DNA from: Parasphingorhabdus flavimaris
GTDB lineage: Bacteria; Pseudomonadota; Alphaproteobacteria; Sphingomonadales; Sphingomonadaceae
Assembly (NCBI RefSeq): GCF_013371215.1
Contig: NZ_JABWMH010000001.1
Coordinates: forward strand, 868,001 to 932,000
Direction of reading: 5' to 3'
Length of the DNA: 64,000 nucleotides
The notes beneath the pieces are model-generated. The model worked only from the letters and a program-made list of their open reading frames with translations. It made no database searches and had not been told where the DNA came from. Shown here piece by piece: positions 42,202 to 60,050 of this stretch. The stretch's first letter is position 1, and each line of letters starts with the position of its first letter. Made by a program: the position numbers and the translations under genes.

Positions 42202-43229
42202 GCTTCCGCTTCGGCCCGTTTCGGCGCAATTTTGCGGTTGGCCAAAATCCATTCGCCGCTTTCGCTTTTGATATATTTGGGCTGGCGGGTGACATTCCAG
42301 ACCAGGCCCATTTTCTCGAGCAGCAGCAGGACATAGCCCGCGATATCGATTTCCCACCATGCCATGCCCTGAAAACTGGCGCGGGGATGTTTGTGATGGT
42401 TGTTGTGCCAGCCCTCGCCGAAGGTGAGCAGCGAGAAGATGAAGCTGTTCCTGGCCGTGCCGACGCCCTTGGTGTGTCGCTGAGAGCCGACGACATGGGC
42501 ATAGCTGGAAATGCCCAGCGTGATCTGCAGGACGACGAAGGTGCGGAAATAGCCGCCGATCAGGATCGTGCTGACGACATGGTCCCAGCCGCCAAAGGCA
42601 AGACCCCAGATGCCCGGAAAGATGATCAGCGAGAAGACCAGCCAGTACCAGCGTGTCTTGTGCAGCCAGAGCACGACATCATTGTCGGCAAGACCCTTGC
42701 CGTAGATGCTGGTGTCGGTGACGCAATCGTCCATGAACCAGCCGAAATGGGAGTGGAACATGCCTTTCAGGCGGCTTGTCTTGCGACCGCGGCCATCGAG
42801 CCACGGGCTGTGGACGTCGCCAATCTCATCGGCGTGCGCATGGTGACGCCGATGGTCGGTGGCCCAGCGCAATACCGAAGACTGGATCGACATTTGCGCC
42901 ATTGCGCCGAGAATATATTGCATCGGTTTCGACGTCTCGAACGACTTGTGCGAAAAATAGCGGTGGAAGCCGAGGACGATGCCGAGCATCAATATGATAT
43001 ATCCGGCGATAAATGCCGACCATTCCACCCAGCCGGTATCATAGGTGAACATCCACCAGACTGCGGCGATCGAGCCGAAAATCTTCGAGCCGAACACGAT
43101 CGCATATTCGCGGCGTTTCTCGCGCCCTGCCTCGCCGCCGACAATGACGCCGGGATGCGGACGGGGTTCGTCGCTCTCCTGAGAAATGCCGTTTTCCTGC
43201 TGATATTTATCGCGAAAATTGCGCGCCAT
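42198..43229 (-). CDS. Acyl-CoA/fatty acid delta-9 desaturase
   Basis: A 343-residue membrane diiron desaturase putting a double bond into fatty acyl chains, important for membrane fluidity. The three histidine boxes are clear: HRYFSH (about residue 90), HRRHH (about 127) and HNNHH (about 265). Four helices are arranged in two pairs as in stearoyl-CoA desaturases. It is divergent from the ccrM gene, sharing a 330-base region rich in GANTC sites, so the desaturase promoter might also sense methylation, but that is untested. Confidence 0.92.
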
Positions 43230-43394
43230 CTGTTTACTGACCCCCGGAATGTTACGCTCTGGATCTATTCTGCTGACCGAACATATAGCTTGAACAGCAG
43301 ATTTTGTGAACCAGAATTGAAATTGGACGATTTGGGCCGCCAGATCAAAATAAATATTCGCCAGCGAGTCTTTTGCGCCACACCACTAGGGATT

Positions 43395-44702
<1,308 letters not shown>

Positions 44703-58580: not shown

Positions 58581-58979
58581 TCAGTCGAGCCCCGGTTTTC
58601 CACGCATCTTTTTGACGTTGGATTTCTTTTTCTTGGTGTCGACCCGACGGGCCTTGGCGGCTTTGCTCGGCCGGGTTTTGATCCGGCGGGCGTCGCGTTC
58701 GTAGGCCAGTTCGATCATTTCGCTAACCCGCCGCCGTGCTTCGGCCCGGTTGGCTTCGCGGGTCCGGTAGGCGCGGACGGTCATGATCAGTTCGCCTCCG
58801 CTTGTCATCTTTCGGCCCGCGAGCGTCTTCAACTTGCGGAAGGCATAAGGCTCCAGTCCCAGAGCGTAGATATTGACGCGCATCTGGACTGCGGTCGCCA
58901 CCTTGTTGACATTTTGCCCGCCGGGACCGCTGGCGGCAAGAAAAGTCTCGGTGATCGCGCTTTCGGGTAATTCAACCAT
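58581..58979 (-). CDS. arfB: Peptidyl-tRNA hydrolase ArfB (YaeJ)
   Basis: A 132-residue release-factor-like protein with the catalytic GGQ in GPGGQNVNKVATAVQMRVN (about residues 18-36) and a basic C-terminal tail (KAAKARRVDTKKKKSNVKKM) that in family members enters the empty mRNA channel of stalled ribosomes. It frees ribosomes stuck at mRNA ends. It starts in the region upstream of ctrA and is divergent from it. Confidence 0.94.
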   Translation of the reverse strand: MVELPESAITETFLAASGPGGQNVNKVATAVQMRVNIYALGLEPYAFRKLKTLAGRKMTSGGELIMTVRAYRTREANRAEARRRVSEMIELAYERDARRIKTRPSKAAKARRVDTKKKKSNVKKMRGKPGLD

Positions 58980-59160: not shown

Positions 59161-59227
59161 GAGTCCTGAAACGACTCATTCCTGCGGGTTTCAGAGTCAT
59201 TGACATGCCCGCGACTCATGCTGAATC
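59161..59227. promoter_or_regulatory. GANTC cluster upstream of ctrA
   Basis: Five GANTC sites lie within 67 bases at 59161, 59173, 59194, 59213 and 59223, about 116-182 bases before the ctrA ATG. Around them are TTAA half-sites (59244, TTAACC; and 59271, GTTAAT). In Caulobacter, ctrA P1 has one GANTC whose methylation silences it; here the site density is much higher. The rest of 58980-59342 holds only AT-rich runs (near 59140). Confidence 0.7.
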
Positions 59228-59342
59228 CTGCGTTAGGGGAAAATTAACCTTTTACGTTCATTGATCTTATGGTTAATAAATGATCCATCGGGTCGGCACA
59301 GTGGTCGATCTGGAGCGAGTAATTAAGAAAAGGGGCTGCCTC

Positions 59343-60050
59343 ATGCGCGTGCTGCTGATTGAAGACGAACCAACGACCGCAAAAGCGATTGAGCTGATGC
59401 TGACAACCGAAGGTTTCAACGTTTACACCACAGACCTGGGCGAAGAGGGGCTCGATCTCGGCAAGCTCTATGATTATGACATCATATTGCTCGATCTCAA
59501 CCTGCCAGACATGCATGGATATGATGTCCTCAAAAAGCTGCGTGTTGCGAAAGTACAGACACCGGTGCTCATCCTTTCCGGAATCAGCGAAATGGACAGC
59601 AAGGTCCGTTCCTTTGGTTTTGGTGCCGATGACTATGTTACCAAGCCATTCCATCGCGACGAACTGGTTGCCCGCATTCATGCGGTTGTTCGCCGTTCGA
59701 AAGGCCATTCGCAGAGCGTTATCCGGACCGGCAAGCTGGCGGTTAACCTGGATGCCAAAACCGTCGAAGTCGATGGCAATCGTGTCCATCTGACCGGCAA
59801 GGAATATGCGATGCTCGAACTGCTGTCGCTGCGCAAGGGAACCACCCTGACCAAGGAGATGTTCCTCAACCATCTCTATGGCGGGATGGACGAACCGGAA
59901 CTCAAGATCATCGACGTGTTTATTTGCAAGCTCCGCAAAAAGCTGGCTCTGGCCTGCGGCGGAGACAATTATATCGAGACGGTCTGGGGCCGCGGCTATG
60001 TTCTGCGTGATATGGAAGAAGAAACCGCGCCAACCGCACAAGTTGCCTAG
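59343..60050 (+). CDS. ctrA: Cell-cycle response regulator CtrA
   Basis: A 235-residue OmpR-type regulator nearly identical in key regions to Caulobacter CtrA. Phospho-acceptor Asp51 ([12 protein letters not shown]) sits in the receiver domain; the winged helix carries the invariant [20 protein letters not shown] and [16 protein letters not shown]. The start is ATG 59343 after AAAAGGGG; the in-frame ATG 63 bases earlier would add residues not found in CtrA. The C-terminus ends Gln-Val-Ala, not Ala-Ala as in Caulobacter. Master regulator of the cell cycle, motility and division. Confidence 0.97.

Follow-up and report, generated by a model that had tools for sequence, protein, structure and literature searches.

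Why should ctrA be preceded by five GANTC sites, the recognition sequence of CcrM, packed into 67 bases? The question is raised by a locus in the window, by which we mean the whole 64-kb stretch of DNA analysed here. The sites lie between the divergent genes arfB and ctrA, 120-182 bp upstream of the ctrA start codon, and follow each other at start-to-start steps of 12, 21, 19 and 10 bases (Table 1). All that the preliminary description had reported of the cluster, namely five sites in 67 bases, at steps of 10 to 21, ahead of ctrA, is confirmed by the coordinates. A search of solved-structure sequences with the ctrA product returned a CtrA-type regulator again and nothing further, and no Rfam match was found between positions 43200 and 60200. 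Papers are cited below by their PMC numbers, and statements about them concern the excerpts available to us.

Table 1. Features of the ctrA and ccrM loci, numbered from the first letter of the window.
Feature	Coordinates	Strand	Remarks
ccrM-upstream GANTC array	43366..43527	.	sites 43366, 43395, 43415, 43434, 43457, 43523
ccrM	43563..44702	+	best family NF050803 CcrM, 612 bits, below the model cut-off of 830
arfB, divergent neighbour	58581..58979	-	gene call and family match
GANTC site 1 (GAGTC)	59161..59165	.	-182 from ctrA ATG; in 29/31 usable genus genomes
GANTC site 2 (GACTC)	59173..59177	.	31/31 genus genomes; GcrA-type heptamer context YGAKTCG in 26/31
Extra conserved element, sites 2-3	59178..59193	.	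frequent genus form ATTTCTGCGG(G/C)TTACA; low parsimony change
GANTC site 3 (GAGTC)	59194..59198	.	31/31; N = G or C across the genus, GA..TC fixed
GANTC site 4 (GACTC)	59213..59217	.	31/31; YGAKTCG context in 29/31; 31 bp before TTAACC
GANTC site 5 (GAATC)	59223..59227	.	22/31 genus genomes
Predicted CtrA box TTAG-N7-TTAACC	59233..59249	+	31/31 genus genomes: 17 TTAA, 14 TTAG
Inverted CtrA half-site GGTTAA	59271..59276	-	31/31 genus genomes; 52/60 anchored family genomes
ctrA	59343..60050	+	NCBIfam NF045991, 422 bits against a cut-off of 350

Against 325 GANTC sites predicted by dinucleotide shuffles, the window has 116: the motif is depleted overall. Were these 116 scattered uniformly at random, five in 67 bp would occur somewhere in the window with P = 0.00055. 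Depletion genome-wide and enrichment in intergenic DNA are described in PMC3973325. The preliminary description had also proposed a genome search for other clusters: in the 2,064,000 of 3,349,176 bases scanned, no second stretch of five in 67 bp was found, and two stretches of four were, one at window position 43395, before ccrM, and one at C3:180748. At the latter (G000:C3:180748-180796), four sites occupy 49 bases directly after an apparent rpsT terminator, near dnaA. Within the first 1.2 Mb sampled, GANTC has a density of 3.1 per kb in ORF-free DNA against 1.9 in ORFs. An enrichment between genes that is specific to GANTC is weakened by two of the seven permuted motifs, AGNCT and CTNAG, which are likewise enriched in ORF-free DNA; the remaining five show little contrast in the same sample.

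A single cluster of this kind in a genome of 3.3 Mb could be a product of chance, or could have been carried along with other conserved elements, and the comparison of related genomes bears on this directly. A CtrA match was present in all 60 genomes of our first search set, the window's own included, and a pattern scan of GTDB contigs found the same promoter in records of Sphingorhabdus, Parasphingorhabdus and uncultured Sphingomonadaceae. The genus set (Parasphingorhabdus/Sphingorhabdus) comprises 32 genomes, 31 of them usable for ctrA counts; in the one dropped, G002, the contig ends 123 bp upstream. Upstream of ctrA, a stretch of 67 bp contains at least four GANTC sites in 30 of these 31 genomes and at least five in 21, and at least four of the five positions of the array are kept in 30. 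Three genus genomes (G009, G028 and G029) have seven sites in the 300 bp before ctrA.

Which letters of the array resist change was evaluated by parsimony. The tree, built from ctrA and ccrM, covers 29 genomes (G002, G016 and G017 omitted), and 26 of them contributed ccrM. The mean number of changes is 0.15 for the 20 fixed letters, 2.2 for the five N and 3.4 for the 42 other letters of the array; outside it, the mean is 4.35 for the aligned upstream columns and 1.69 for the downstream ones, which cover the CtrA box and the leader. Fixed and other array letters differ with p = 7e-5 (Mann-Whitney), or 1e-6 without the element at 59178-59193. At site 3, N has changed five times and the four fixed letters never; at site 5, the corresponding counts are four and two. 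Since GA and TC are nearly constant while most spacer letters vary, and N varies at sites 3 and 5, selection acts on the letters that CcrM recognises, and the five-site array is maintained by it across the genus. The retention of at least four fixed positions amid fast-changing spacers, together with this selection, contradicts the chance or passenger reading, which we consider practically untenable. At sites 1, 2 and 4, N itself is nearly invariant (1, 1 and 0 changes), and therefore something more may be read there.

The picture changes outside the genus. Of 149 family genomes searched, 140 had a CtrA match; 60 from other genera were fetched, and CtrA matches of 66-72% identity were left out. 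The 300 bp before ctrA contain 0, 1, 2, 3, 4 and 5 sites in 11, 22, 18, 4, 3 and 2 of these 60 genomes, respectively, so that 51 have two or fewer; the mean of 1.53 sites compares with 0.52-1.27 for the seven permuted motifs. The place of site 4, 31 bp before TTAACC, also holds a GANTC in several other genera, and the few genera with four or five sites space them differently. Conservation across the order is ruled out: of 24 outgroup genomes from outside the family, 17 lack GANTC in the 300 bp. One outgroup genome, G056, has a separate cluster of four before ctrA. Because other genera mostly have up to two sites and outgroups mostly none, the five-site array is an elaboration of this genus. 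The conservation in relatives by which the preliminary description proposed to judge the cluster thus holds within the genus, with four or more positions kept in 30 of 31 genomes, and fails for Sphingomonadales, since 51 of 60 genomes from other genera of the family have up to two sites.

Numbers of this order have been published: PMC8116508 gives one to five GANTC in the 300 bp before Sphingomonadales ctrA. Both that study and ours report site numbers, and the ranges differ, since we find seven sites in three genus genomes and none in 11 of the 60 from other genera. Unlike the present analysis, the available part of PMC8116508 contains neither the layout, nor a test of selection, nor the ccrM array. 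The count of up to five is thus already in print, and the fixed layout was not found in the literature searched: the titles and abstract openings of open-licence papers held no description of it, or of the ccrM array.

The array is followed by elements that suggest what it might serve. The CtrA box has the consensus TTAA-N7-TTAA. The strict form is present in 17 of the 31 genus genomes, and the other 14, the window's own included, carry TTAG-N7-TTAACC; an inverted GGTTAA follows 18-40 bp beyond the box in all 31. In other genera, 60 of 63 ctrA regions could be anchored, of which 43 have a related CtrA box and 52 the inverted half-site. The genome encodes GcrA (PF07750, 133.8 bits, above the cut-off). 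The YGAKTCG form of the GcrA motif, known also from Caulobacter work, surrounds two of the five sites when either strand is counted: site 2 (26 of 31 genus genomes) and site 4 (29 of 31). It never surrounds sites 1, 3 and 5; it accompanies 464 of 3915 background GANTC sites, and 24 of 54 ctrA sites in other genera. The extended motif is written YGAKTCK in PMC7987155, where the YGAKTCG form appears once.

Between sites 2 and 3 lies the extra element, whose word CGACTCATTTCTGCGGSTT has 17 exact places in the GTDB genome_contigs: 13 before ctrA in the same orientation, two before ctrA reversed, and two elsewhere. The two reversed occurrences, of the form CGACTCATTTCTGCGGGTT, lie before ctrA in related genomes. 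The matches in Flavobacterium and Sphingomonas ursincola have no ctrA start within 600 bp, and we take them as chance. A scan with the sigma-70 consensus gave no match inside the array. By eye, a TTACAG and a TACATT-like hexamer stand 11 bases after sites 2 and 4, respectively, and one might guess at two -10 elements.

The second cluster, which had been placed ahead of ccrM, is real, with six sites before the ATG (Table 1). In 26 of 27 readable genus genomes its first four sites follow each other at exact steps of 29, 20 and 19 bp; three genus genomes (G004, G017 and G029) have no ccrM match. Five of its sites show no change, either at fixed letters or at N, while 137 other letters have a mean of 2.1 (p = 8e-5; 24 genus genomes, without G002, G009, G021, G016 and the partial match in G008). 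In other genera, ccrM was found in all 69 genomes searched, and upstream regions were taken from the best-scoring 29 of these 69: in 27 of the 29, a 100-bp stretch before ccrM contains at least three GANTC. Fifteen additional family loci are more varied, with at least four sites in 100 bp at nine of them, two sites at five and none in G155, which brings loci with at least three to 36 of 44 for the family. A fixed layout for the whole family is weakened: of the 29 other genera, 7 reproduce the 29/20/19 steps exactly and 13 loosely. Eight outgroup ccrM loci have four to six sites in 100 bp, in different layouts that look irregular by eye. Since ccrM clusters span family and outgroup loci and the ctrA array is limited to the genus, clustering looks older at ccrM than at ctrA.

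The two arrays differ in the GcrA motif. The heptamer accompanies 4 of 137 ccrM sites in the genus and 9 of 163 in other genera, both below background. Upstream of ccrM, sites favour a G or C centre and avoid the heptamer, unlike ctrA sites 2 and 4. In several genera, a downstream pair of ccrM sites 10-11 bp apart is followed by TGTGGATAA, a word resembling a DnaA box. Given how rare the heptamer is at ccrM, this motif does not bear out a single GcrA signal for the two arrays, and its scarcity would leave room for a reader other than GcrA. Of the earlier proposal that both genes answer to one control signal, what stands is that ccrM has a conserved array of its own.

Could the sites then mainly serve to bind a protein that recognises GAGTC or GACTC together with their flanks, methylation being incidental or modulatory? 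The near-invariant N at ctrA sites 1, 2 and 4 would fit, as would the invariant N at the five ccrM sites tested in 24 genomes, the flanks conserved in both promoters, and the extra element, largely specific to ctrA and reversed in two relatives. GAGTC and GACTC also make up 151 of 169 ccrM-upstream sites from 30 genera, against 167 of 520 ORF-free sites in a genome sample. At ctrA sites 3 and 5, however, N changes five and four times where GA..TC changes zero and two times, and we know of no protein that reads GAGTC or GACTC with flanks, which also counts against this explanation. We hold it to be distinctly unlikely.

If fork passage is to set the state of these sites, the position of the genes on the chromosome matters. 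In five closed genus genomes, with parB as proxy for the origin, lengths rounded, and the end of parB taken for G010, both genes lie far along the way from origin to terminus, ctrA at a fraction of 0.80-0.95 and ccrM at 0.79-0.96. An origin-proximal ctrA with a long hemimethylated window is found in none of the five. Where the two genes share a contig, as in 25 genus genomes, 12.5-36.8 kb separate them in every case; in four drafts they lie on different contigs. The sharp switch tied to fork passage, as first imagined, is therefore altered in its timing: with ctrA this close to the terminus, the signal would come late. Sixteen other genera were compared, using 15 single-contig genomes plus the large contig of G154: in 13 of them ctrA is in the origin half, at 0.11-0.38, and in three it is near 0.8. 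In the seven other-genus genomes where ccrM was located, it lies at 0.47-0.78. That terminus-proximal ctrA genes have larger arrays is rejected as a rule: array size and position correlate with rho 0.46 (p 0.04) over all 21 genomes, with rho -0.12 over the 16 other genera and with rho 0.08 over 17 genera when this genus is counted once. In G125 and G146, ctrA is terminus-proximal without any GANTC site.

We propose, with a probability that we put at about 0.6, that the array belongs to a P1-like ctrA promoter gated by CcrM and GcrA, its five sites having arisen in this lineage by multiplication of an older one. All of them would be methylated by CcrM, and passage of the fork would leave them hemimethylated together. 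GcrA prefers methylated GANTC, and at sites 2 and 4 it would meet its extended context; at this stage it would assist RNA polymerase in initiating ctrA transcription, until full remethylation by CcrM closed the promoter. The CtrA so produced would occupy the box just beyond the array, silencing P1 and activating P2, and the linked ccrM array would change state nearly simultaneously, giving a delayed negative feedback close to the end of replication. The number of sites suggests that the array may read the replication state of the chromosome through several marks rather than one. The earlier claim that methylated sites control ctrA is made more plausible, in part, by the selection on the sites, their upstream place and the presence of genes for both CcrM and GcrA.

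Published work bears on this proposal from both sides. GcrA has methylation-dependent footprints on Caulobacter ctrA P1 (PMC3667746), CcrM sites before cell-cycle genes have been surveyed (PMC2877005), and, among 13 species compared, GcrA control of ctrA is predicted only in Caulobacterales and Sphingomonadales (PMC7987155). Against it, the single-site genes activated by GcrA in B. subvibrioides show no preference for the extended motif, save a slight one for C before the site (PMC7987155), and an unmethylatable ctrA promoter gives Caulobacter no abnormal phenotype (PMC3973325). It counts against the proposal as well that 51 of the 60 other-genus genomes manage with two sites or fewer, and 11 of them with none. 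The empty sigma-70 scan of the array, the rarity of the heptamer at ccrM and the missing trend between array size and distance from the origin across genera weigh on the same side.

For comparison, upstream of parE (G000:C2:269872-269900 in the window's own genome) a single GANTC precedes a TTATAG element by 8 bases in 27 of the 29 genus loci that could be read; it is missing in G019 and G020, and the locus of G029 is truncated. A GAGTC/GACTC pair, complete in the window's own genome, is not a rule of the genus. In its sequence the parE site suits the usual one-site GcrA promoter, beside which the ctrA and ccrM arrays stand out. PMC7987155 counts parE with the genes that change in a ccrM mutant of Brevundimonas, which favours the proposal.

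Methylation might also act on RNA polymerase directly, full methylation of several sites hindering the enzyme and its fall opening the promoter without activation by GcrA. A precedent, which also favours the gated promoter, is the gcrA promoter region of A. tumefaciens, with six GANTC in 250 bp, which is less active when methylated by CcrM, and this even in E. coli, without alphaproteobacterial regulators (PMC11514494). That the heptamer never occurs at ctrA sites 1, 3 and 5, and so seldom at genus ccrM sites, would fit such repression; its conservation at sites 2 and 4, and at 24 of the 54 other-genus ctrA sites, does not. We consider this mechanism unlikely. Another reading has the array shielded by a protein and kept hypomethylated, as are MucR-bound sites in Caulobacter; unmethylated GANTC sites do exist in Caulobacter and Brevundimonas (PMC7987155). 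Methylated sites would, however, account more readily for selection on the exact GANTC letters, and we find shielding very improbable.

A bolder version joins the two genes. The linked, terminus-proximal ctrA and ccrM would together form a detector of replication completion: a late fork would hemimethylate both arrays at nearly the same time, and a reader needing several GAGTC or GACTC sites at near-integral helical spacing would switch both genes on until CcrM closed them. The spacings of the ccrM arrays, 9-11, 18-20 and 28-31 bp, are close to integral helical turns, and adjacent ccrM spacings show a strong 10-bp periodicity (R 0.77, against 0.05 in a genome sample; n = 120 spacings of 7-65 bp, 30 genera). 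Helical phasing is weakened by the shared ancestry of these spacings: counting each distinct spacing once reduces R to about 0.39 (p about 0.03). For ctrA, R is 0.35 at 10 bp (n = 44). We regard such a detector as unlikely.

Comparison with known systems places the preferred reading, the gated P1-like promoter, more precisely. Caulobacter crescentus shares GANTC upstream of ctrA, a CtrA box downstream, ctrA as the target, and genes for CcrM and GcrA. Its P1 has one GANTC (PMC3667746), against five here; its ctrA is origin-proximal where that of this genus is terminus-proximal. The gcrA gene of A. tumefaciens (PMC11514494) likewise has GANTC over-represented upstream of a cell-cycle master gene, although the gene is another one, and the lower activity on methylation was measured for that promoter region. 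The available part of PMC11514494 describes neither the spacing of its sites nor whether this is conserved.

If the two-gene detector were true, the GANTC system would contain a cooperative hemimethylation switch made of several sites, a functional analogue of SeqA arrays. The SeqA-type GATC clusters of E. coli are clustered methylation sites that could report hemimethylation; the clustering is common to them and to the GANTC arrays, and the motif and the methylase differ. Discussions of control by CcrM and GcrA usually consider GANTC sites singly. With a selected five-site array at ctrA and an older cluster at ccrM, one could study how far a cell-cycle switch owes its timing and its sharpness to the number of methylation marks and to their spacing, and do so in bacteria whose ctrA lies near the terminus rather than the origin.
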